Positions 4,570 to 18,200 of a stretch of 25,040 bases of DNA are shown one piece after another. How positions within the stretch are numbered: the stretch's first letter is position 1; every line of letters begins with the position of its first letter. The stretch is from a virus. The DNA lies in the IMG/VR virus record IMGVR_UViG_3300037557_000305, positions 1 to 25,040 of that record. One strand, given 5' to 3'. The notes beneath the pieces are model-generated. The model did not search any database. It was not told the DNA's origin and worked only from the letters and a program-made list of their open reading frames with translations. Position numbers and translations under genes: made by a program.

Positions 4570-6472
4570 ACCTAAGAGCCGAGAAGAGGTTCTAGAGAAG
4601 GTTCTTTCGGAAGCAGATATTAGTGGGATTGCTCCCGACGAAAACCACAGCTTTATCTGCATAGATACGACAGAGAAGCTGCTTGAAGTCTTTGAGGCTT
4701 TTCTTAAAGACGACCCTAAGACGGTTGCTGTAGATACTGAGACGGAAGGTCTTAAGTGGCACCACCGAATTATTGGAGTGTCTTTCTCTTGGGACGACCA
4801 TCACAACTATTACATCCCGATGCGTCACGTTGGGGATGAAAAGCAACTCTTTGTTGAAGATTGTGTGGACGTACTCAATGAGATGTTTTCTTACGAGGAT
4901 AAGAATTACGTCTTTCACAATTATAAATTTGACTACCACAAGCTCGTGAAAGAAGGGGTCAGGATCAAGGGGGCGATCCACGACACCATGCTCATGCATT
5001 ACATTCTAGACGAGAATGATAGACACGCGCTAAAGCACCTAGCTACGAAATTTATTGACCCCCAAGCCGATTATTACGAAAAGGTTATTTCTGACATACG
5101 AAGACGACTTGCGCGAGGTCTCAAGATTAAACTTGCTGACTTCGGGTTCGAACACATCCCCGTCTATATAATGGTGCAGTATGCTTGTCGGGACACTCTC
5201 TATACTCTTAAGCTTTTTAATAAGTTCAGCAGTGACATTTACTCTGACGAAACTAGGGCTAAGGTTTACGAACGGGAATTAGATCTTCTTCCTGTCCTGT
5301 GTGGCATGGAAGAGGTAGGTGTCTACGTAAACCAAGACTTGCTTTCTGAAAAGTCTGACATACTGCAAGTAGAGATAAACGAACTACAGACTCAAGTGTG
5401 GGAGTTGTCCGGGGTCGAGTTTGATCTCAACAGCCCTAGTCAATTGTCTGAGGTTCTTCGGGGTAAGGGAATACACACCGGGCAGTATACCCCTAAAGGC
5501 AAGATGTCCACCGACAAGAAGTCCTTGAAGGGGATCTCTAATCAGTTCCCTTTCGTAAAGAAACTCTTAGAGTACCGCGATCACTATAAGAATAAGAACA
5601 CGTACACTGACCCCTTACGAGGGCACTGTGACGAGAACAGTTTTATCCACTGTAGCTATTCGCAGGCAGTTGCGGTTACAGGGAGGCTGACGTGCCGCAA
5701 CCCCAGTCTCCAAGTTATCCCCCGGTCCACGGGTATTCGGGATGCGTTTGCCCCCCCAACTAAGGACCACTTGATTGTCCCGATCGACCTTAGTCAGATT
5801 GAGCTTCGTCTTACCGCGCACTACAGCGAGGACCCGATTCTCCTTCATGCGTACACACATGACGAGGACATCCACTCGCGTACCGCTGCGGAGATCTTTG
5901 ACATCGACATATCGGAGGTCACAAAAGAGCAACGAACAGTTGCAAAACCCATCAACTTTGGCATCATCTACGGCATCGGACCTAGCAAGCTAGCCGAGAC
6001 CTTAGAGGTTCCCGTTGTGGAAGCCAAACATTACATAGATATGTATCTCACTAGGTACGCGGGAGTGGCCCTCTTTATTAAGAGGTATCAGAATCTCGCT
6101 AAGAAACATGGTTTCGTAAGAAACTATTTTGGAAGAGTTCGGCATCTAGATTTCTTAAAGAGCCGACAAATAGAACAGTGGCAGAGGGAGCGCGGGTATC
6201 GTCAGGCTGTCAACTTTGTAATTCAGAGTTCTGCCGCTGATATGTTCAAGATAATAATGAGGCGTTGTCATGACTTACTAACGGGAAAGCGTTCCACGAT
6301 GGTCATGAACATTCACGATGAAATCGTGTTTTACATTCACGAAAGTGAAATCGATTTACTAATCCCCATTAAAGAAGCATTTGAAAATTGGGCTTTCAAG
6401 GTTCCGATCTTAGCTGAAATATCTTACAGCACCGTATCGTGGGGAGCTAAGCAAGCATTGGAGGACATCTAG
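4478..6472 (+). CDS. Family A DNA polymerase with 3'-5' exonuclease
   Basis: This is the phage replicative DNA polymerase, 664 aa. After a basic, probably disordered N-terminus (1-50) comes a DEDD exonuclease: Exo I VAVDTETEG (D86, E88), Exo II FHNYKFD (D152), Exo III YACRD (Y235, D239). The polymerase domain has motif A DLSQIELR (D437), motif B RTVAKPINFGIIYG (R486, K490, Y498) and motif C HDE (613-615). No 5'-3' nuclease domain is present, as in T7-type and many phage PolA-like enzymes. ATG 4478 is the only plausible start upstream of the exonuclease domain, which forces a 92-base out-of-frame overlap with the FmdB-like gene. It shares its last base with the next gene's GTG. Confidence 0.95.
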   Translation: MRLRKEPSKTTTKTNPTGSKGPKRKTRRSSKPKSREEVLEKVLSEADISGIAPDENHSFICIDTTEKLLEVFEAFLKDDPKTVAVDTETEGLKWHHRIIGVSFSWDDHHNYYIPMRHVGDEKQLFVEDCVDVLNEMFSYEDKNYVFHNYKFDYHKLVKEGVRIKGAIHDTMLMHYILDENDRHALKHLATKFIDPQADYYEKVISDIRRRLARGLKIKLADFGFEHIPVYIMVQYACRDTLYTLKLFNKFSSDIYSDETRAKVYERELDLLPVLCGMEEVGVYVNQDLLSEKSDILQVEINELQTQVWELSGVEFDLNSPSQLSEVLRGKGIHTGQYTPKGKMSTDKKSLKGISNQFPFVKKLLEYRDHYKNKNTYTDPLRGHCDENSFIHCSYSQAVAVTGRLTCRNPSLQVIPRSTGIRDAFAPPTKDHLIVPIDLSQIELRLTAHYSEDPILLHAYTHDEDIHSRTAAEIFDIDISEVTKEQRTVAKPINFGIIYGIGPSKLAETLEVPVVEAKHYIDMYLTRYAGVALFIKRYQNLAKKHGFVRNYFGRVRHLDFLKSRQIEQWQRERGYRQAVNFVIQSSAADMFKIIMRRCHDLLTGKRSTMVMNIHDEIVFYIHESEIDLLIPIKEAFENWAFKVPILAEISYSTVSWGAKQALEDI

Positions 6473-6951
6473 TGAGTGATGAGAACGAAGAGCACTTCAT
6501 CTCTATTGATGGTAGTAGATTTGACCTTAAACCTCTGTACTTGGAGCTTGACCCTGTGCAAGATGTTAAGGTAGATCAGTCCGACCTGCACGGGGAGTTT
6601 ATGCGGCAGTCGGAGTTGAGTGCTGCGTATGGATACCTGACAGCGGAAGCTGAAAAGCAGGAGAAACTAGTCGAGTATCAACTGGAGAGACTTCACGCGA
6701 TGCTCGACAAACAGGTGCGTGACGAGTTTGCTATGGCAGGCGAGCGTGCGACAGAGAACAAAATACGCAATAGCGTAATAACCCACAGAGAGTATCAGGA
6801 GGTAAAACTAGAACTCATCGAAGCCAGGAAAAACAAACAGCTTTTCAAAGCGACATGTGGTGCTCTCAGTCACAAACTTCAGGCGTTGATAAACGCTGGT
6901 GCTGATCACCGTAAGACTTTTGTAGAACCAACTATCCTTCGGGACCAATAG
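6472..6951 (+). CDS. UvsY-like recombination mediator candidate
   Basis: The 159-aa, mostly alpha-helical product has long charged helices (AEKQEKLVEYQLERLH; EYQEVKLELIEARKNKQ), and its ending resembles the helical ending of UvsY. T4 UvsY is a small helical protein (137 aa) that loads the UvsX recombinase onto gp32-coated DNA. Here the gene sits directly before the gp32-like SSB and RecA genes, which strongly favours a mediator role. The sequence match is by overall layout only, not by a diagnostic motif, so the function is inferred. Start is GTG 6472, sharing a base with the polymerase stop TAG. Confidence 0.5.
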   Translation: MSDENEEHFISIDGSRFDLKPLYLELDPVQDVKVDQSDLHGEFMRQSELSAAYGYLTAEAEKQEKLVEYQLERLHAMLDKQVRDEFAMAGERATENKIRNSVITHREYQEVKLELIEARKNKQLFKATCGALSHKLQALINAGADHRKTFVEPTILRDQ

Positions 6952-6962
6952 GAAATTGAAAA

Positions 6963-7907
6963 ATGGGTAAGTTTGATAATTTTGTAAGTTTAGACCTTGG
7001 TAAGATGGCTAGCGACGAGAGTCGTTTTGGTCGCGGTAAGCGCATCCAGCGCCTCAAGGTCCAAGTAGGCCAGCCACGAGTGATTAGGATTCTTCGTGGG
7101 GCGACGGACTCTTCTTTCTATCGGGTGCGTTCTCAGCACTGGGGAATCCCAGTCGGGCACGGAAACACGCCTCCCCTCTCCTGCTCGCGAAAGCATGGAG
7201 ACAACGAGCCCTGTTATTTTTGTGAACAGGTTAATGAATACTACAACTCCGGGGACCCTCGTCAGAACGAGTTAGCTCGCCGCATGAAGGCGTCTGTGAG
7301 TGTCATCAGCAACGTCATTGATGTGAAGGACCCTCTTAATGATGACGGCACACCTAAGGTGCTCATCTGGCAGTATTCTTGGAAGCTCTTTCAGGAGATT
7401 CGATCTTACTTTCGGGACGCTGACTACGGTGACTTGACTCACCCACTCAATGGCCGGAACTTCAAGATCTCTGCGTCAGTAGTCTCCTCCCAAGGGCAAC
7501 GTCAGTGGACGCGATACGATCTTCAGGTAGGTGCTAAGCCCACTGAGTTGGAGACCCCGGAAGCGTTGGATCACCTCTATGACCTCGACAGCACTTTCCC
7601 TGTGAAGATCTACAGCTATGAGGAGCAGAAGATGATCTGGGACGGGACGTGGGACCCCAGGTCTGGCCGAACCGCGCTTCCTGCTTCGGCAGCGTCTACA
7701 GCGCCTAAGCTGGAGAGCAAGAACACCGAGGAGGAGTTTGCTGATACCCCAAGTCCTAAAGCAGCCCCAAAGGAGGATGACCTTGATGAGTTTGAGGCAG
7801 CTTCTGAAGACGATGATTGGGGGGACCTGACTACGTCGGGTGACAGCGAAAAACAAAACGCTATGCAGCAGAAGTTGGCGGCTCTCAAAAAAGCGGCAAA
7901 GAAATAG
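6963..7907 (+). CDS. Single-stranded DNA-binding protein, T4 gp32-like
   Basis: The 314-aa protein has the three-part plan of T4 gp32. The basic N-terminus should support cooperative binding. The central OB-type domain contains a zinc site (C74, C84, C87, spacing C-x9-C-x2-C, the same as gp32's Cys77/Cys87/Cys90, with His59, His66 or His78 as possible fourth ligand). The C-terminal tail is acidic (about 240-290, with EDDLDEFEAASEDDDW), of the kind used to recruit replication partners. It would coat ssDNA at the fork and during recombination. AGGAAAT lies just upstream of ATG 6963. It is flanked by the UvsY-like candidate and RecA. Confidence 0.88.
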   Translation: MGKFDNFVSLDLGKMASDESRFGRGKRIQRLKVQVGQPRVIRILRGATDSSFYRVRSQHWGIPVGHGNTPPLSCSRKHGDNEPCYFCEQVNEYYNSGDPRQNELARRMKASVSVISNVIDVKDPLNDDGTPKVLIWQYSWKLFQEIRSYFRDADYGDLTHPLNGRNFKISASVVSSQGQRQWTRYDLQVGAKPTELETPEALDHLYDLDSTFPVKIYSYEEQKMIWDGTWDPRSGRTALPASAASTAPKLESKNTEEEFADTPSPKAAPKEDDLDEFEAASEDDDWGDLTTSGDSEKQNAMQQKLAALKKAAKK

Positions 7908-7910
7908 GCT

Positions 7911-8963
7911 ATGAAGATTAAAAATCCCTCTAAGACTAAAAAGACTAAAAAATCTCAACCCTTGAAGGGGGTTGCGGAGACTCCTTCTGATAAAGTTTCG
8001 GCTCTTGCGGCGCTCATGAGTAACGTGTCAAAGAACTACGGAGATGGTTCTTTGATGCTTATGGGAGATAGCCCCCGCGCAGATGTCGAGGTTATCCCCT
8101 CAGGGTCTATTGGAATGGATTACGCTTTTGGGATTGGGGGGTACCCTCGGGGCCGGATTGTGGAGATCTATGGCCCGGAGAGTAGTGGTAAGACCACCCT
8201 GACGTTGCACGCTATTGCAGAGTGTCAGCGTCAGGGTGGTGTTGCTGCGTTCATTGATGCTGAGCACGCTTTAGATCTCTCCTACGCTCGAAAGCTCGGG
8301 ATTGATACAGACGCTCTACTTTTCAGCCAGCCTGATTACGGAGAGCAAGCTCTGAACATTGTCGAAGACATCGTAAGAGCTAACGTTGTGGACCTTATCG
8401 TGGTAGACTCTGTCGCCGCGTTGACCCCTAAAGCTGAAATTGAAGGGGACATGGAGAAAAACCATGTAGGTTTACAAGCCCGTATGATGTCTCAGGCTCT
8501 TCGTAAACTCACTGCCGTCGTACACAAGACAGACACTTGTTTAATGTTTATCAATCAGACGCGCCAAAAGATTGGTGTGATGTTTGGTAACCCGGAGACC
8601 ACTCCCGGAGGTAATGCCCTAAAGTTCTATTGCTCCATACGAGCCAGTATCCATCGCTCTTCTGCCATTAAGAAGGGTGAAGAGATTGTGGGTAATGTTG
8701 CTCGCGTGAAGGTCGTAAAGAACAAGCTCGCTCCTCCGTTCAAAGAGGCGAGAATTACCATCTTGTTTGGTAAGGGCATTGACCACTGGGGAGACGTGGT
8801 TGATATGGCAGTTGAACGCGACCTGATCATTAAGTCAGGGGCATGGTTTAAGTACGAAGGGGAGTCCATAGGCCAGGGCAAGGCCGGAGCTATTAAGTGG
8901 CTTAAGGAAAACCCTGAGCAAGCTAGTAGTATTGAGTCGGTACTAAGAAAGGGGTTGACTTAG
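7911..8963 (+). CDS. recA: RecA recombinase
   Basis: The 350-aa protein is a RecA-type strand-exchange ATPase. It has the Walker A loop GPESSGKT (88-95), a Glu-containing [10 protein letters not shown] segment, a Walker B strand ending VVDSVAAL, and the L2/ATP-cap region [18 protein letters not shown]. This reads as a bacterial-type RecA, not a diverged UvsX. An extra Lys-rich N-terminal stretch of about 25 residues is present, and the C-terminal domain is of ordinary length. With the SSB and mediator candidate just upstream it should drive recombination-dependent replication or repair of phage DNA. The ATG lies 3 bases after the SSB stop with little Shine-Dalgarno, suggesting translational coupling. 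Confidence 0.95.
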
Positions 8964-8983
8964 ACTCTGCTGGGTACTATAGG
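8955..8983 (+). promoter_or_regulatory. Candidate promoter at the end of recA
   Basis: TTGACT (8955-8960), 17 bases, then TATAGG (8978-8983). The -35 has five of six consensus bases and the -10 has four. A start site would fall at or just before the ATG at 8991, so the transcript would be nearly leaderless. The element overlaps the last codons of recA. Confidence 0.35.
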
Positions 8984-8990
8984 TATAGCT

Positions 8991-9218
8991 ATGAAAATGA
9001 TTGAGACAACGCTCACCATAGGGCGTACTATTAATATGGGAAACTTTGAAAGCCTCCGTGTGGATCTTTCCATTAAGGCCGAAATAGATTCCGACAACTA
9101 TTCAGAAGACTTGAAATCCTTAGAGGAAACTCTTACGGGACATATTGAGGGCGTTATTCATAGAAAGATTAACGGACCCCCCGATGTGGTTGAGGCTTCA
9201 GGGGAAGAGTTTATATAA
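8991..9218 (+). CDS. Small unknown protein, 75 aa
   Basis: I did not recognise this gene. The product begins with a beta-rich segment (TTLTIGRTINMGNFESLRVDLSIKA), then an acidic helical stretch (SEDLKSLEETLTGHIEGVIH), and has no signal peptide, membrane segment or cysteine. It looks like a small soluble cytoplasmic protein. It begins 27 bases after recA and ends one base before the ATG of the secreted Cys-rich protein. A promoter-like TTGACT sits 36 bases ahead of its ATG; only a weak AGG could serve as ribosome site. Confidence 0.55.
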   Translation: MKMIETTLTIGRTINMGNFESLRVDLSIKAEIDSDNYSEDLKSLEETLTGHIEGVIHRKINGPPDVVEASGEEFI

Positions 9219-9219
9219 T

Positions 9220-9384
9220 ATGTGGTTTATTGCTTTTTTATTGATGTCCTCGCACGCCCCTGTGGTTGCGGCCCCTAATGGCAGGACCCCGTGTAACCAT
9301 GATGTGGTGTGTGGAAAGGGCGAGTGCTGGGAAGGTATTTGCGAGGCTGACGGGTACTGTCAGGCGTACTGGACTTGTGTATGA
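9220..9384 (+). CDS. Small secreted Cys-rich protein, 54 aa
   Basis: ATG 9220 starts one base after the upstream stop. The product has a hydrophobic N-terminal signal (MWFIAFLLMSSHAPVVAA), with likely cleavage after Ala18, and a short mature part of about 36 residues with six cysteines (25, 31, 36, 41, 47, 53) spaced 4-5 residues apart, consistent with three disulfides. There is no lipobox. A longer reading frame begins at 9145 inside the previous gene, but the signal peptide marks 9220 as the true start. Its TGA overlaps the ATG of the gp47-like gene. Function is unknown; an exported disulfide-rich peptide inside a recombination operon is unusual. Confidence 0.6.
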   Translation: MWFIAFLLMSSHAPVVAAPNGRTPCNHDVVCGKGECWEGICEADGYCQAYWTCV

Positions 9385-10448
9385 AGATTGCTTTGTACTC
9401 AGACTTGCACGCCCACCCGTACAGTAACGGTGTGTTGTTAGAGCACGGATCTAACAGCCGCGTTCTAGATGCTTCTAACGTAATAGGTCAGGTGTATTCT
9501 TACGCTATTGATAACGGGTTGGCGCACGTACTGTTTGGTGGAGACCTTTTTGACCGACGTAAGAGTATAGACGTAGACACGTATAACACCATCCACAGGT
9601 GCATCCAGAACTGGTCCGAGCAGGTCTCTACGGTGATGATACCGGGTAACCACGATCAGGCTAACAAGTCCGGTACCATACATGCCCTTCAACGCTTTCA
9701 GTCGCCTACTTGTAAGATTTTTAGCAAGCCTGAATGGGTTCCCTTGTCAGACGATGTTCACTTATTCGGGGTACCTTACTACGACGACGGGGAAATCATA
9801 GCTAAGCACGTTCGGGAAGGGTTAGAGGACAAGCCTGAAGGTAAGAGGCATATCTTGATGCTTCACTACGGTATTGAGGGTGCGAAGATCGGACCCTCTG
9901 ATTACGTACTGCCCTGCGAGTTGAAGTTGCCGATGCTATGTCTTGACGAGTGGGACATAGTATTCAGTGGGCATTATCACATCGGACAACAGCTAGGGAG
10001 CAAGTTCCATTACATTGGATCAGCGATGCAGCACCGTTGGGACGATGTCGGCTTTGAAAAGACTTTCGTTGTTTATGATTCAGATACTAATTCTATTTCT
10101 CGGGTACCTACCGTAGCTCCAAAGTTTTTGGAGATTAGAGGTAAGACTAAAGATCATGACGTGAAAAATTGCTTCGTTAGAATTATCAGAGATTATGAAA
10201 TATCTTCTGATAAGAAGCCTAAGATTGAAGCGTCTCTAAAAGATAAGGGAGCCCTATCCGTAGAGTTTAGGTATGAGCCTGAAAAAGAAGATTTAGAAAC
10301 TTCAGAGAGGATAACCTTCTCTGAGTCAGGCGGTAAGTATCAGATTTTAGATGACTATATTTCTTCTGATTTGGTAGATACCGCTGAGTTTGATTTGGAT
10401 AAATTGCTTAATATTGGCAAAGAAATCCTTTCTCGGGCAATGGATTGA
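9381..10448 (+). CDS. SbcD/Mre11/gp47-like nuclease subunit
   Basis: The 355-aa calcineurin-like metallophosphoesterase has all expected metal-binding motifs: DLHAH (D8, H10), GGDLFDRR (D55), GNHD (89-92), a LHYG His near residue 155, and GHYHIG near residue 198. Mre11/SbcD/gp47 enzymes pair with Rad50/SbcC/gp46 ATPases to resect double-strand ends; the probable partner is encoded at 16025. ATG 9381 is preferred to the in-frame TTG 9375 because it forms an ATGA overlap with the previous stop. About 110 C-terminal residues beyond the phosphoesterase core would carry the capping and ATPase-binding part. The other metallophosphoesterase, at 13891, has a different architecture. Confidence 0.88.
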   Translation: MKIALYSDLHAHPYSNGVLLEHGSNSRVLDASNVIGQVYSYAIDNGLAHVLFGGDLFDRRKSIDVDTYNTIHRCIQNWSEQVSTVMIPGNHDQANKSGTIHALQRFQSPTCKIFSKPEWVPLSDDVHLFGVPYYDDGEIIAKHVREGLEDKPEGKRHILMLHYGIEGAKIGPSDYVLPCELKLPMLCLDEWDIVFSGHYHIGQQLGSKFHYIGSAMQHRWDDVGFEKTFVVYDSDTNSISRVPTVAPKFLEIRGKTKDHDVKNCFVRIIRDYEISSDKKPKIEASLKDKGALSVEFRYEPEKEDLETSERITFSESGGKYQILDDYISSDLVDTAEFDLDKLLNIGKEILSRAMD

Positions 10449-11062
10449 TGATGAATGGTATCTTATCTTCTATATTTTATACTCTATGCTTAATTACCTC
10501 CCCCCCAGGAGACATACTAGAGGAAGAGTATTGTGTGATTGCTGGGCCGGATGGGACAGACGCTGAGTTAGAAGCTCACATGGAGGAGACTCTGTACGAG
10601 GAGGAACTCATTTTTACGGCTATTAACCGCTGTAAGAATGCGACTCCGTCTAAGGTTAAGCCTGATCTTATTCGTGACCTTTTAGAGATTGAAAAGAAAG
10701 CGGGCGTACCGAAGAAGTATCGCGGGATGGTGCTGGCGGCTGCATGTAGCGAGTCAGGTTACAACCCTAATGCGGTTGGTGATAGCGGAAAAGCTGTAGG
10801 TATTTTGCAGATGTGGCCTTGGTGGGAGCGTAGTAGGTATAAGGTTAACCGACGCGATCCGTACCAGTCGGCCATGGCGTGGACTGCTCAAATAATGAGG
10901 ACGGTACCCAAAGCTATTAAAAAGTGTGGTAAAAGGCGGGGGTTCTTAACAGCGTGGTCCTGGGTGGCTGCCGGTCCTAAGAAGTGGCGATGTAGGTCCC
11001 CCCGGCATTACACTCGACTGAAACGCTGGCAGCGGAAAGTAAAAAAAGAATTAGGCATCTAA
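10448..11062 (+). CDS. Lytic transglycosylase, SLT-like, exported
   Basis: The 204-aa product begins with a hydrophobic export signal (MMNGILSSIFYTLCLITS). A lysozyme-like SLT domain follows: ACSESGYNPNAVGDSGKAVG with probable catalytic Glu102, then ILQMWPWW and a helical end with WSWVAAGPKKW. Such enzymes cleave the glycan strand of peptidoglycan. Four or more cysteines in the mature part fit an oxidising periplasm. It could be the endolysin (signal-dependent) or a virion-associated muralytic enzyme. The ATG overlaps the previous TGA; a TTG at 10445 is an alternative. It is followed by tRNA-Arg and faces convergent minus-strand genes that include a holin-like protein. Confidence 0.75.
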   Translation: MMNGILSSIFYTLCLITSPPGDILEEEYCVIAGPDGTDAELEAHMEETLYEEELIFTAINRCKNATPSKVKPDLIRDLLEIEKKAGVPKKYRGMVLAAACSESGYNPNAVGDSGKAVGILQMWPWWERSRYKVNRRDPYQSAMAWTAQIMRTVPKAIKKCGKRRGFLTAWSWVAAGPKKWRCRSPRHYTRLKRWQRKVKKELGI

Positions 11063-11069
11063 GTTAAGT

Positions 11070-11143
11070 GCCTTCGTAGCTCAGTTGGATAGAGCAACGG
11101 CCTTCTAAGCCGTAGGTCACAGGTTCGAATCCTGTCGAAGGTG
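11070..11143 (+). tRNA. tRNA-Arg (anticodon TCT)
   Basis: A full cloverleaf: 7-pair acceptor stem GCCTTCG/CGAAGGT (terminal G-T pair), D arm with AGCTCAGTTGGATAGAGC, anticodon stem ACGGC/GCCGT around loop CTTCTAA (anticodon 11104-11106), and T arm with GGTTCGAATCC. The CCA end is not encoded. It reads AGA. Only two bases separate it from the stop codon of the facing minus-strand gene. Confidence 0.95.
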
Positions 11144-11145
11144 AC

Positions 11146-11346
11146 CTAGTTTACAAAACCCTCCGTGGGCATTTTTATCAATATACGATTGAGGGCGAGT
11201 TGGTCGTGGGCTTCTTGTAGAGCTTTTTGGAAGTTAGATACGTCAGATTTACGCAACTCGTCTAACATCCCCCACAGGGAGGCGTTCTCATCTTCCAGAA
11301 TGCTTATTCTCAACTCTAGTTCTTTGATGATAGCTTCCCACTCCAT
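11146..11346 (-). CDS. Small coiled-coil protein, 66 aa
   Basis: The product starts with a heptad-rich helix (WEAIIKELELRISILEDEN) and is predicted almost entirely helical and charged, like a short coiled coil that forms oligomers. No membrane segment or catalytic motif is seen. The ATG is preceded by AGGAG at about six bases. It is the last gene of the minus-strand block, 8 bases after the holin-like gene, so the two are likely cotranslated. A role in lysis control or membrane scaffolding could be guessed from context, but the sequence does not show one. Confidence 0.55.
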   Translation of the reverse strand: MEWEAIIKELELRISILEDENASLWGMLDELRKSDVSNFQKALQEAHDQLALNRILIKMPTEGFVN

Positions 11347-11354
11347 GATTTCTC

Positions 11355-11603
11355 CTATTTTCTGGTTCTTACTCTGATCTCAACCAGACCTTCGTTTATC
11401 TTCTCAAGAGCGCGTTCTAGCATGTGCTCTTGCTCTATCAGTCTTTCTACGATGTGTTCTTGGTGGTACTGGAGAGTTTCTTTTGCGTTTTTTTCGTACT
11501 CTTTTCGGTCCTTGTTCATCCGGTGAGTGGTCCATAAAAGAGAAGCAGTCCAGAGGCCAAGAGGCCCGTACTGAGCTAAAGCGTTAAGAAACTCTATTTC
11601 CAT
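11355..11603 (-). CDS. Holin-like small membrane protein, 82 aa
   Basis: A short hydrophobic N-terminal segment (about 6-25, with GPLGLWTASLLW) is followed by a long charged helix with many Glu/Lys/Arg (residues 29-80). One N-terminal membrane span plus a cytoplasmic coiled-coil tail resembles the BhlA/UviB-type holin layout in outline only. The transglycosylase lies just across the convergent tRNA, so a lysis role is plausible. Alternatives are a membrane anchor or a spanin-like accessory protein. AAGGA lies six bases upstream of the ATG. Confidence 0.5.
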   Translation of the reverse strand: MEIEFLNALAQYGPLGLWTASLLWTTHRMNKDRKEYEKNAKETLQYHQEHIVERLIEQEHMLERALEKINEGLVEIRVRTRK

Positions 11604-11646
11604 GCCGCGTCCTTCACCTAGATAAGTAGTTCTTCCTCGTCCTCAC

Positions 11647-11662
11647 TTCTCTGACCAGAGAA
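11647..11662. repeat. Perfect inverted repeat between minus-strand genes
   Basis: TTCTCTG and CAGAGAA surround a two-base centre, a perfect 16-base dyad in the gap between the small membrane protein gene and the holin-like gene. No T-run follows on either strand, so it is a protein-binding dyad or mRNA hairpin candidate and not a clear terminator. Confidence 0.35.
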
Positions 11663-11674
11663 ATTAGAAGACGT

Positions 11675-11959
11675 TCAAGGTATCTCCAAAACGATACAAG
11701 AGCCGTTCAGAACTTGTATACGTGTGTTTAGTTCTAAAGAAAAAAAAGATATATTTTTTTTATCTATTTTTATATCGCCAATTGCTTCCCCACTAAATAT
11801 TGGGTTGCCTGCTACAAAACAGGTAACTAGAGATTTAGTAGGTGCGGTTGGTTTTATTTTAGGGGATTCTGGCTTGTTGTGGTTGATTACAGCTAATACG
11901 GTTAGCGCTATCGCAGCCACTCCAAACCAAAATATTGCGTTATCGAACAAGTACTTCAT
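11675..11959 (-). CDS. Small membrane-anchored protein, 94 aa
   Basis: ATG 11957-11959 forms an ATGA overlap with the stop of the MopE/VWA lipoprotein gene, so the two are probably translated together; an in-frame GTG six bases earlier is less likely. The N-terminus is one transmembrane helix (about residues 8-26, FWFGVAAIALTVLAV). A Pro/Lys linker and a small beta-rich domain with two cysteines (SLVTCFVAG and NGSCIVLEIP) follow, probably facing the periplasm. No family was recognised. The gene contains an A-run and a T-run of eight bases each, about six bases apart, which are possible slippage sites. Confidence 0.6.
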   Translation of the reverse strand: MKYLFDNAIFWFGVAAIALTVLAVINHNKPESPKIKPTAPTKSLVTCFVAGNPIFSGEAIGDIKIDKKNISFFSLELNTRIQVLNGSCIVLEIP

Positions 11960-13818
11960 TGGCACACATTCTCGTCCAGTATTTGCAGTAAGTTAGAAAG
12001 TAACTCTTCTGGGTTTATGGATAAATTAAACCAACTACCTCCTGTCGCTTGAGCTAAGTTTTCCCAAGTGTTTTTAAAATCCACTGTAGTGAATGTATAA
12101 AGTTTTAAATCTTCAGAAGTACTAAGTGTTGTTTCTACTTCTAGTGGGTTTAGTGGTGGGGATAAGAAGGATTGCGGCTGTTCGTCGCTAAATAAGATTA
12201 TTACTTGCTTGGCGTCCTCCCTCCACGTAGGTGGGAAGCTTATGATTGGGGGATCAGAAAACACACCGTTACCCCAAGTAAGATCTTCCAACATATGCGG
12301 AGTAACTCCTCCGAGGGGGAACACGCTTAGGTATACCGCGTCTAAAAGCATTTCTTTGCCGCCAGATAGCGGGAGAGTAGCGGCTACGGACAACGCCCCT
12401 ATGAAGGCAGAGAACCCCCCTAAGTCGGAGTGTAGTGTGAGGTACTCGTCTGAGAAAATATTTGTAGAATTTGCAGAGGTAGGTCCGATGATTAGCCCCC
12501 ACTGAAGGGTCTCTTCGTCTGTATACTGGAGTGCAAAGGTCTGAAGTGCGATCAGTACTGCGGATATTTCTGTGTCCATGCTCCCAGACATATCTACGAT
12601 TAGTAGGATGTCCGTAGGATCCATGGGTTCCCCATAGTCGGTTATCCCGTCACAGTCGTCGTCTACTCCGTTGCACACTTCTTCTTGTGGAGTAGTTTCT
12701 CCAAAACATAAGTTTGGGATGAAACCGTCTGGAGTATAGGACCCCCAGCTACCTTCTACGCACGTAAGATCTCCTCCGTGACAAATACCTACGTCTAAAG
12801 TGCTTGCGGGGCCTGTGTAGCACTCTCCGGCCAGGTCCTCGTCAATGAGATCGTCACAGTCGTCGTCAAAGTTGTTACATAGCTCTTCTTCTGGATGCCC
12901 TAGCGTAGGGTCGCAGGTTTCCCCCTCCACGGGTAAGAACACGCAGAGAGCAAAACACTCCGTCATGCCGGTAGTTGAACACAGGGGGTCTAAGCATTCG
13001 CATGTCTTAAACCCTTGTCCACAGGTTAAGGGATCTTCATTGCAAGGGAGCAGCGTACCTATAAGCTCGGGAGGACATTTACAAAGAAGCCCCTCGTCTA
13101 CGGCACCGTCACAGTCGTCGTCTATGCTATTACATATCTCTTCTGTAGGTTCCGTAGCCGTGCAGTTGGCCCACTCGCCTGCGATACAGATCTGGTACCC
13201 CGTGTCACAGTCCGTAGAGCAGGGCTCTACTAAATCTTCGTCTACGGCACCGTCACAGTCGTCGTCTATGTTGTTGCATACTTCCTCGGGGGGGAAACCG
13301 CACCCACCACAACTGTTAGTTTGGCCTTCGTCTATTTCTCCGTCACAGTCGTTGTCTAGGTAATCACACACTTCTTCAAAACAGGGAGATGTGCATTCTC
13401 CGTATTGGTAGTTCCCCTTGTTACAGTATATGTTTTGTGTTCCGGGGAACCCGTCTTCCGTAGTGCAGTCTTGGTTCCCTTGTAGGTATATGCTCGGATC
13501 ACACTCAAAGTACTCTATGCACTCGCCTACAGATAGTACTTGAGGTGGGTCTTGGCAGATGTCTACGATTACTTCGGCCTGCCACACGGCGTTGAGGGGA
13601 GGACAAAACCAAAACTGGCTTCGGTAGCAGTCGTATTCGTAAGTGTCCTCTTCTACGTCCTCCTCTGCATCCCCTGGAGAGGATTGAACTTCGGAAATAA
13701 CGTCGAGAACAGGAAGAGTGCCCCATTTAGGAGGGGAGCAAGAGCTGAGTAACAAAAAAGTAAATAAATACGTTAACTTTAAAAATAGACGATTAGAACA
13801 TTTGTTAGTTAGGGGCAT
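11956..13818 (-). CDS. Lipoprotein with MopE-like repeats and VWA domain
   Basis: This is the most unusual gene of the window, 620 aa. It begins with a lipoprotein signal (hydrophobic 11-24, lipobox LSSC, Cys27), so it should be anchored in the host envelope. A Cys-rich segment with pairs of cysteines follows. Five Asp-rich repeats of the form EVCNxxDDDCDGxxDE are centred near residues 158, 188, 236, 321 and 389, matching the MopE-type putative metal-binding motif. A von Willebrand A domain spans about 403-615, with MIDAS motif DMSGSM (D409, S411, S413). Related architectures are common in Myxococcota surface proteins. Here it is flanked by phage genes, so it is either a host-derived moron or a phage surface factor. 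Stop and next start overlap in ATGA. Confidence 0.8.
   Translation of the reverse strand: MPLTNKCSNRLFLKLTYLFTFLLLSSCSPPKWGTLPVLDVISEVQSSPGDAEEDVEEDTYEYDCYRSQFWFCPPLNAVWQAEVIVDICQDPPQVLSVGECIEYFECDPSIYLQGNQDCTTEDGFPGTQNIYCNKGNYQYGECTSPCFEEVCDYLDNDCDGEIDEGQTNSCGGCGFPPEEVCNNIDDDCDGAVDEDLVEPCSTDCDTGYQICIAGEWANCTATEPTEEICNSIDDDCDGAVDEGLLCKCPPELIGTLLPCNEDPLTCGQGFKTCECLDPLCSTTGMTECFALCVFLPVEGETCDPTLGHPEEELCNNFDDDCDDLIDEDLAGECYTGPASTLDVGICHGGDLTCVEGSWGSYTPDGFIPNLCFGETTPQEEVCNGVDDDCDGITDYGEPMDPTDILLIVDMSGSMDTEISAVLIALQTFALQYTDEETLQWGLIIGPTSANSTNIFSDEYLTLHSDLGGFSAFIGALSVAATLPLSGGKEMLLDAVYLSVFPLGGVTPHMLEDLTWGNGVFSDPPIISFPPTWREDAKQVIILFSDEQPQSFLSPPLNPLEVETTLSTSEDLKLYTFTTVDFKNTWENLAQATGGSWFNLSINPEELLSNLLQILDENVCQ
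12651..13356 (-). repeat. Five degenerate direct repeats inside the lipoprotein gene
   Basis: CACAGTCGTCGTC or a one-base variant recurs at 12651, 12855, 13110, 13254 and 13344 (plus-strand reading), each encoding the CDDD/CDND core of a MopE-like repeat. Copies at about 13095 and 13239 share a longer identical stretch of about 33 bases, pointing to a recent internal duplication. Spacing is irregular and the copies are coding, so this is not a CRISPR array. Confidence 0.7.
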
Positions 13819-13890
13819 TTATTTACTTCATATAGGTTTCAACTTCTTATTTATGGTTGGTATTAATAATATCTTCGTCAAGAAATATAA

Positions 13891-15576
13891 TTAACAAGTA
13901 CCTTCTGCGTATAAGGACGCAAAAACGCCATCTAAAGCGTCAACTAAGACAGCCGCTATTAATTTTTTATTGCCGACGTATCCTTTTTTGGCGTGCCATT
14001 TGTCTTCCCCTGACAAGCTTGGGAGTTGGTATCTAATGAACCCTCGGTCTTCCTCTACTTTTTCGTGGTGCAAGTGCCCGGTGAAGACCATCTTGTGATC
14101 ACACTTACCCCAGGCGTCTCTAGCTTCAACGGCGGCTAGTCGAGCTAGGTCAGAAGTCTTGCTTACACCGTCACCGTGGTGAAAACAGAGTAGGTTGTTT
14201 TCATACACAAGGTATTGCCTGTGCTGGGCAGACCTGACGGTAGTTACTTCTTTACAGCTTTTGTACCAAGCCTGGAGGTACAGGTGCAGACTAACGCTTA
14301 GAAGTTGGTCGTGGTTTCCGGCCATTAGCACCATCTGTATTGGAGCCACTTGTCTTAGCAAGTCGATGTAGTCGGTCATGAGTTCGCACCCTGTGGTGAG
14401 GATGTCACTCATGTTTCCGTCGTTGTCTTGTGGAGTCCCTGATGTTGTTGTGCCGTGATAAGTGTCCGCGTTGAAGAAGTCAGACCCTATCCCAATGATG
14501 ATTTTTTCAGGACGCCCATGTTTTGTAATGTCTGCTAGAACTTTCTCGGTAGACGAGAATAGGCGCTCCCTGGCAGTCGGGCGGTCGTAGTGTTCCCCGC
14601 ACTCGTACACGTCGCCACGCTTACCCCAGTGAAAGTCTGTAGGGGTTATGACTGCGGTGTATCTTCTTTTAGACTTAGGAATGCTTAGTTTTGGGACTCC
14701 TCTAGCTCCACCTGTTTCTGTTATGTTTTCTAGTCTTCTGAGAGTAGAGGCTTCGTACTCTCTCCACCTTAGTGCGTCTTTTTGAATCTCCTTCCACTTA
14801 TCTCTTTCTAGACGTGTGTAGAGAGCGGCTCTTCTGATTTGAAGAGCTTCTTGAGCAAGCTCGTCTTCCGATCGAGACATGATCTCCTCAGAAGTAAAAG
14901 GCTCTCTGTCGTGAGTTATCTCGTGTACCCGTAAATATTTTACGATCCAATTTCGAGGTAGCTGAAATGTTCGGGCAAGCTCGTTAACAGACGCAGGGTG
15001 TCCATCAAAGTTGCTATATGCCCGCAGGAGGTCACGATGTACCTCCCCAGGGAGTTCGATTGCGTGAGGCACGCCAGGAAGATACGTAGTGTACGTGTCT
15101 CGATCCTCGTCAAACCATATACGCTTATTACTTACGTATTGTTTAGAGCTAGATTTATCTACTTTTGGCTCGGGAGGCACGTCCTCGTCAGGAGCCACGC
15201 TCTGGACAAAAAGAGGCTCTAGTTGTACTAGGTGGCCTACCTCTTGTCGAGCCAACAACCACCTCCCCCACGCTTTTAACTCTTCGTCTTCAAAAGGGAG
15301 ATCCTTGTAAGTTCTTTGTATCCTAGACCACTCTCTATTTTTAACGTAGTTAAGGAAATATTGGTTTATCAGTTCTGTGGCTACGTACCACTTTTCTGGA
15401 ACTCCTTCAGTTTCTTGCTTTTCTAAATTGAAAGCCCTAACTAACTTCCTTATCTTTCTTGCGTCAGACTCTGAAACTTTAAACTTTTGAGAAATTCCTT
15501 TGTCGTTTAACCCGGTTAAAGATTTCCTTCTAAGGAGACTTTGAGCTATCTCCACTATTCTTGTTTCCAGGTCCAT
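13891..15576 (-). CDS. HTH-containing metallophosphoesterase
   Basis: The 561-aa product combines DNA-binding-like and phosphoesterase parts. Residues about 24-50 (GISQKFKVSESDARKIRKL) and 190-222 (SVNELARTFQLPRNWIVKYL) look like two helix-turn-helix units, and a long helical linker follows to 300. The C-terminal domain has metallophosphoesterase motifs: PTDFHWG (D314, H316), GSDFFNAD (D366), GNHD (420-423), HHGDG (466-470) and GHLHH (500-504). The metal site appears complete, so activity on a phosphodiester is likely; the substrate is unknown. It differs from the gp47-like protein by its HTH-rich N-terminus and lacks that protein's capping-type tail. It heads the minus-strand block and is divergent from the plus-strand genes at 15794. 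Confidence 0.8.
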   Translation of the reverse strand: MDLETRIVEIAQSLLRRKSLTGLNDKGISQKFKVSESDARKIRKLVRAFNLEKQETEGVPEKWYVATELINQYFLNYVKNREWSRIQRTYKDLPFEDEELKAWGRWLLARQEVGHLVQLEPLFVQSVAPDEDVPPEPKVDKSSSKQYVSNKRIWFDEDRDTYTTYLPGVPHAIELPGEVHRDLLRAYSNFDGHPASVNELARTFQLPRNWIVKYLRVHEITHDREPFTSEEIMSRSEDELAQEALQIRRAALYTRLERDKWKEIQKDALRWREYEASTLRRLENITETGGARGVPKLSIPKSKRRYTAVITPTDFHWGKRGDVYECGEHYDRPTARERLFSSTEKVLADITKHGRPEKIIIGIGSDFFNADTYHGTTTSGTPQDNDGNMSDILTTGCELMTDYIDLLRQVAPIQMVLMAGNHDQLLSVSLHLYLQAWYKSCKEVTTVRSAQHRQYLVYENNLLCFHHGDGVSKTSDLARLAAVEARDAWGKCDHKMVFTGHLHHEKVEEDRGFIRYQLPSLSGEDKWHAKKGYVGNKKLIAAVLVDALDGVFASLYAEGTC

Positions 15577-18116: not shown

Positions 18117-18200
18117 GCCGGAATGGTGGAACTGGTAGACACAAGGGACTTAAAATCCCTCGCCCGTTTGGGCGTGCGGGTTCGATTCCCGCTTCCGGCA
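18117..18200 (+). tRNA. tRNA-Leu (anticodon TAA)
   Basis: A class II tRNA with acceptor stem GCCGGAA/TTCCGGC, D arm TGGTAGAC, anticodon stem AGGGA/TCCCT around loop CTTAAAA (anticodon 18151-18153), a short variable arm GCCCGTTTGGGC and T arm GGTTCGATTCC. Discriminator A73 and no encoded CCA. It starts on the base after the preceding stop codon. Confidence 0.96.

Follow-up and report, generated by a model that had tools for sequence, protein, structure and literature searches.

The sequence analysed here (the window) is a stretch of 25,040 nucleotides, positions 1 to 25,040 of the IMG/VR virus record IMGVR_UViG_3300037557_000305. Its minus strand carries a gene for a lipoprotein, here called LP, in which a signal peptide with a lipobox is followed by an acidic linker, a beta-rich domain, a region of MopE-type repeats and a C-terminal VWA domain (Table 1). 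The phage-like surroundings described in the initial annotation were confirmed by matches in the window to a GpA-type terminase (phrog_675, E 7.5e-80), an SbcC-like exonuclease (phrog_77, E 2.4e-118) and a DNA repair exonuclease/phosphoesterase, and two tRNA genes are also present. The gene of this last enzyme lies directly upstream of LP, on the same strand and 72 bp apart. An independent contig, L005, is collinear with the window over positions 5846-14804 at about 75% nucleotide identity and also has this gene upstream of LP. Because of this collinearity an assembly join with bacterial DNA was excluded.

Table 1. Features of the LP locus and of related loci. Positions refer to the window unless another contig is named.
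Feature	Position	Strand	Remarks
LP gene	11956..13818	(-)	620-aa ORF
LP signal peptide and lipobox	13738..13818	(-)	residues 1-27; lipid-attachment Cys27; predicted from sequence
LP acidic linker			residues 28-62; fast-evolving
LP beta-rich N-domain			residues 63-147
LP repeat region	12628..13377	(-)	residues 148-397; five MopE-type D-x-D-C-D-G-x2-D-E repeats; PF11617
LP VWA domain	11959..12627	(-)	residues 398-620, C-terminal; predicted integrin-beta-like MIDAS
Small protein	11675..11959	(-)	one N-terminal TM segment and a domain with two Cys
82-aa protein	11355..11603	(-)	weak phrog_2429 match, E 1.1e-4 (bacteriocin production/immunity)
66-aa coiled-coil protein, cluster c43	11146..11346	(-)	adjoins LP in several relatives
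DNA repair exonuclease/phosphoesterase	13891..15576	(-)	phrog_704, E 1.7e-56
Lytic transglycosylase (SLT)	10445..11062	(+)	N-terminal hydrophobic segment; PF01464 above cut-off; convergent neighbour
79-aa ORF	9145-9384		hydrophobic segment, then Cys-rich tail; overlaps ORF 8991-9218; no family match
tRNA-Arg(tct)	11069-11146		directly borders the coiled-coil gene, at its end (minus-strand cassette); 95% identical in L005
tRNA-Leu(taa)	18117-18200		
c24 copies	L007:11899-12510; L008:11911-12522; L009:12130-12735; L033:11491-12108; L044:12335-12970; L175:9233-9865		often beside LP
Phage lipoproteins with trypsin-like domain	L023:5448-6500; L011:8664-9491; L016:11427-12218; L043:11796-12515		
Two LP-family lipoproteins in one phage, tandem	L015:9722-14348; L040:9131-12740		
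Two LP-family lipoproteins in one phage	G382:C1:180415-181068 and 224791-225507		
Terminase matches with in-frame TAG	G356:C1:58427-60160; G367:C1:22038-23657; G377:C1:56765-57901		large LP-bearing phages
Terminase match with in-frame TGA	G383:C1:102017-102982		large LP-bearing phage

The lipobox of LP has the form L-S-S-C and ends at Cys27, as had been proposed. The initial annotation also listed five C-x3-DDDCDG-x2-DE repeats; five copies are indeed present (residues 151, 181, 229, 314 and 382), but the exact consensus is found in copies 2 and 3 only, the remaining ones reading DNDCDG..DE, DDDCDD..DE and DDDCDG..DY. The two predicted Pfam domains were recovered in part. PF11617 matched LP with an E-value of 1.6e-16 (60.7 bits against a cut-off of 27) and four stretches each pass this model independently, which places the repeats far beyond chance, whereas PF00092 (VWA) stayed below its cut-off (E 0.05, 14.3 bits against 23.8). 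The MIDAS motif announced for the VWA domain is there, as D409-M-S-G-S, and the domain itself was established, despite the sub-threshold score, by the modelled fold and the family conservation described below.

The stop codon of LP overlaps the ATG of the gene for the small membrane protein, in the ATGA coupling noted earlier. The suggestion that both genes form a conserved pair did not survive comparison: the small protein has a homologue in L005 alone, and there a 93-aa ORF lies between it and LP. A two-gene system was consequently rejected, there being no viral relatives of the small protein beyond L005.

When IMG/VR was scanned with the LP protein, 46 relatives were obtained with identities to LP of 28-74%, except for four very distant ones at 23-24%. 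A second scan, based on the VWA alignment, found 38 loci, part of which lie on contigs already found with the LP protein. Pooling both scans, the family comprises at least 75 distinct proteins in phage contigs, window included, in agreement with LP being a phage trait, and relatives lie among phage replication genes on contigs of up to 284 kb. The proteins are 620-790 aa long and 35 cysteines are conserved in at least 90% of the family alignment. Usually three to eight repeats are found per protein (one in the most distant branch), a presence that is partly selected, as relatives were fetched by patterns with the repeats, or with the MIDAS plus an FSDE..Q stretch; the lipobox, E489, W532 and R533 lie outside these patterns. 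A lipobox occurs in 69 of the 70 distinct members with a complete 5' end, and the column of Cys27 is kept in all 33 with an intact N-terminus. Just one of these 33 has Asp after the lipobox Cys; in E. coli, Asp at position +2 is the signal that retains lipoproteins in the inner membrane.

The terminase of the window (phrog_675) was matched in none of 32 LP-bearing records. Moreover, 18 of 20 large LP-bearing records have a phrog_2 terminase, of which there is none in the window, a 25-kb fragment though one with its own terminase. From this difference it follows that LP is common to phages with different terminases, and the gene is thus shared by different phage lineages, which fits an accessory, host-directed gene. 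In the LP gene tree the window and L005 stand together, and gene contexts cluster. Some phages have two lipoproteins of the family, in tandem or apart (Table 1). As a separate observation, four terminase matches in large LP-bearing phages read through an in-frame TAG or TGA, which may reflect an intron, another insert, a changed code or an error.

No match to LP was found in cultured phages, plasmids, PHROGs or NCBIfam, nor among the anti-phage defence proteins of PADLOC-DB, and literature searches returned no paper on such a phage protein. The viral protein A0A516KYY5 in BFVD is a structural match to the LP model (E 4.2e-20, 27% identity over 313 columns) and is probably a public relative, although with 266 aa it is partial.

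The structure of LP was modelled with AlphaFold2 on a 36-member alignment. The model has a mean pLDDT of 82, with values of about 90-97 across much of the VWA part, and shows a confident alpha/beta VWA fold. It gave 126 PDB matches at E <= 0.001, the top ones being mostly integrin I and other VWA domains. The best solved structure in Foldseek was integrin beta3 (E 2.3e-7), and further best matches were integrin beta and alpha I domains and CMG2. At the sequence level, the best PDB matches of the family VWA profile were to integrin beta-8 (E 0.003); the PDB sequence search with the single LP protein gave no match.

D403, D409, S411, S413, E489 and D493 never vary in the 36 aligned family proteins, and W532, R533, D545, E546 and C619 are likewise constant (36/36). 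Judging from the alignment, D409, S411, S413, E489 and D545 would correspond to the integrin-beta MIDAS, composed of D-x-S-x-S followed by a Glu and an Asp, and E489 appears to take the place of the Thr of canonical VWA domains, as in integrin beta. MIDAS-containing VWA domains bind acidic ligand residues via a divalent ion, and D-x-D-x-D-G loops usually bind calcium.

Comparison of LP with its counterpart in L005 gave a dN/dS of 0.10 overall, 0.04 in the repeats, 0.12 in the VWA domain and 0.64 in the signal peptide and linker, values that are rough, with synonymous changes near saturation. They point to strong purifying selection on LP, and the pattern fits a tether that is free to vary, carrying a head and stalk under constraint.

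Genes for MopE-type repeats are also found in cells: 80 cellular loci, mostly of Myxococcota and Deltaproteobacteria, match the LP repeats, and two proteins among them match the phage VWA profile, weakly. For most family members the E-values lie between 1e-56 and 1e-96; the best cellular matches reach about 1e-9 to 1e-11, and among the genomes of the three phyla searched LP has no close cellular VWA relative. That MopE-repeat proteins are common in Myxococcota might suggest that LP is a recently captured host gene without phage function, or bacterial DNA fused to the phage contig by the assembly. This explanation is hardly credible and already largely refuted, given the collinearity of L005, the dN/dS of about 0.1, the number of distinct family members in phage contigs and the distance of the cellular matches.

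Among 331 Myxococcota genomes there was one strong match, on a 34.9-kb binned phage-like contig with LP and c24 in G226. No match of that strength was found in 345 genomes from the phylum of a Saprospiraceae MAG or in 343 from the phylum of a Phycisphaerae MAG, both searched without a positive control. The G226 contig is a hint of a Myxococcota host, and one contig is too little to name it. Myxococcota, in which MopE-repeat proteins are abundant, include many social and predatory members, and together with the integrin-like MIDAS fold this could indicate an intercellular adhesin, whose head would stick infected cells to neighbours or prey and so aid phage spread. With the family on just this one binned contig in the Myxococcota genomes, we regard such a function as unlikely.

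The gene order in the largest clade is RecA, exonuclease-like, DnaB, RNR-like, GroES-like, ThyX, LP, c2, c3, PolIII alpha, dUTPase and IMPDH-like, where PolIII, GroES-like and ThyX were labelled by Pfam scan, RecA and DnaB clustered with the window's own proteins and the others were read from sequence. In about 14 relatives LP lies between ThyX or GroES-like and the c2, c3 and PolIII genes, mostly with short overlaps, which suggest that LP and c2 form one operon. It is this position among replication, not structural, genes, along with a lipobox ill-suited to a virion protein, that makes a virion component, such as a receptor-binding decoration, highly improbable, even if VWA domains do occur in some viral proteins.

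Other relatives have genes for envelope proteins beside LP. Cluster c24 is a secreted or lipoprotein-like protein with an invariant H-E-L-x-H of the HExxH zincin-like type and a downstream D-x-D-H; in L007, L008 and L033 there is a 4-bp overlap between its gene and the LP stop, and its gene is the one present on the binned contig G226:C1 (L137). Against Pfam no family scored above cut-off for c24, and in structure comparison its hits were weak and for the most part zinc peptidases (E 0.05). Cluster c33 is a lipoprotein with a Trypsin_2 domain. Among the phage lipoproteins with a trypsin-like domain (Table 1), the copy in L023 has Trypsin_2 and gives in addition a match to the PADLOC models RT-Protease_XI (E 5e-9). 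Cluster c35 is by sequence an SLT transglycosylase, located just upstream of LP in L021, L027 and L034 (5-13 bp) and close upstream in L147 and L149. The constant trait of LP neighbourhoods is the envelope setting, while the partner varies.

The neighbours c24 and c35, as well as the SLT gene and the phrog_2429-like gene of the window (the product of the latter is possibly holin-like), could also speak for a lysis or egress factor. In such a role LP, located in the outer membrane, would act like an outer spanin and help the transglycosylase, the holin-like product and the small TM protein to break the envelope. We consider this rather unlikely: the LP gene of the largest clade lies within the block of replication genes, the small TM protein is restricted to the window and L005, and spanins are short and are not known to have a VWA domain.

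We propose instead that LP acts at the host surface. Following export, the protein would receive its lipid at Cys27, and its most likely destination is the infected cell's outer membrane, where a flexible acidic linker and a stiff, disulfide-rich stalk of MopE-type repeats, probably loaded with calcium, would hold out the VWA head. Through a divalent metal, the head would probably contact an acidic residue in a binding partner. As the gene is embedded among replication genes in many relatives, LP is probably made during phage replication, gene order being an indirect sign of expression time. In the infection LP may occupy or remodel a host surface component, most plausibly blocking the adsorption of a second phage. 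We give this reading of LP, as an envelope-displayed, metal-dependent protein that most plausibly excludes a second phage, a probability of roughly 0.4. In its favour are the lipobox (69/70), the MIDAS residues (36/36), the integrin-like best folds, the dN/dS of 0.10, the position in the replication block and the envelope neighbours c24, c33 and c35. Counting against it, known superinfection exclusion proteins are usually small whereas LP proteins have 620-790 aa, and the nearby lytic transglycosylase and possibly holin-like gene in the window fit lysis as well.

In broader terms, LP may tentatively be seen as an undescribed phage family that places an integrin-beta-like head on the infected envelope and alters its contact with phages or cells, often with a neighbouring gene for a peptidoglycan lyase, a serine protease that is itself a lipoprotein, or a secreted protein resembling metalloproteases. 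The phage genes known to change the envelope of their host mostly encode small proteins and come from a few model phages. A large and strongly conserved lipoprotein whose head resembles integrins, which occurs in phages with different terminases and was missing from the collections of cultured phages, plasmids and PHROGs searched, would suggest that some uncultivated hosts share a selective pressure acting at their surface. The invariant MIDAS residues are direct targets for point mutants.

Some features of LP are shared with systems already described. An outer spanin (Rz1-like) is a short lipoprotein of the lysis cassette that goes together with an inner-membrane coiled-coil spanin, either as a pair or with nested genes; LP has 620 aa and no conserved partner. 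Another parallel is Llp of phage T5, a superinfection-exclusion lipoprotein, which has in common with LP that a phage encodes it and that its expected place is the outer membrane of the host. Llp differs from LP in being small, and it is not known to have a VWA domain or repeats.

MopE of Methylococcus capsulatus, after which PF11617 is named, is exported like LP. The copper site of MopE consists of His132, His203 and a kynurenine formed from Trp130 (PMC3423442). LP has four His in all and no W-x-H, a motif found in just 6 of 36 family members, so a counterpart of this site is absent and copper binding of the MopE kind, as one form of the metal binding considered in the initial annotation, is unlikely and was rejected for LP. 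In spite of the name of PF11617, a protein that scavenges or stores copper or another metal as MopE does is very improbable, the repeats being Asp/Cys loops of calcium-binding look.

The PF11617 surface proteins of Myxococcota and other Deltaproteobacteria are, like LP, exported and have Cys-containing D-x-D-C-D-G-x2-D-E repeats, and some, such as L078, also have a VWA domain. The LP family differs from them in its own type of VWA and in the order lipobox, repeats and C-terminal VWA. With integrin beta-I and other VWA A domains LP has in common the fold, the D-x-S-x-S motif and the Glu and Asp further on, and in both LP and the integrin beta-I domain a W-R precedes the last MIDAS strand. Identity to integrins is low (10-15%), and an integrin hybrid domain or partner chain is not known for LP. 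LP thus resembles the integrin site without being a member of the integrins.
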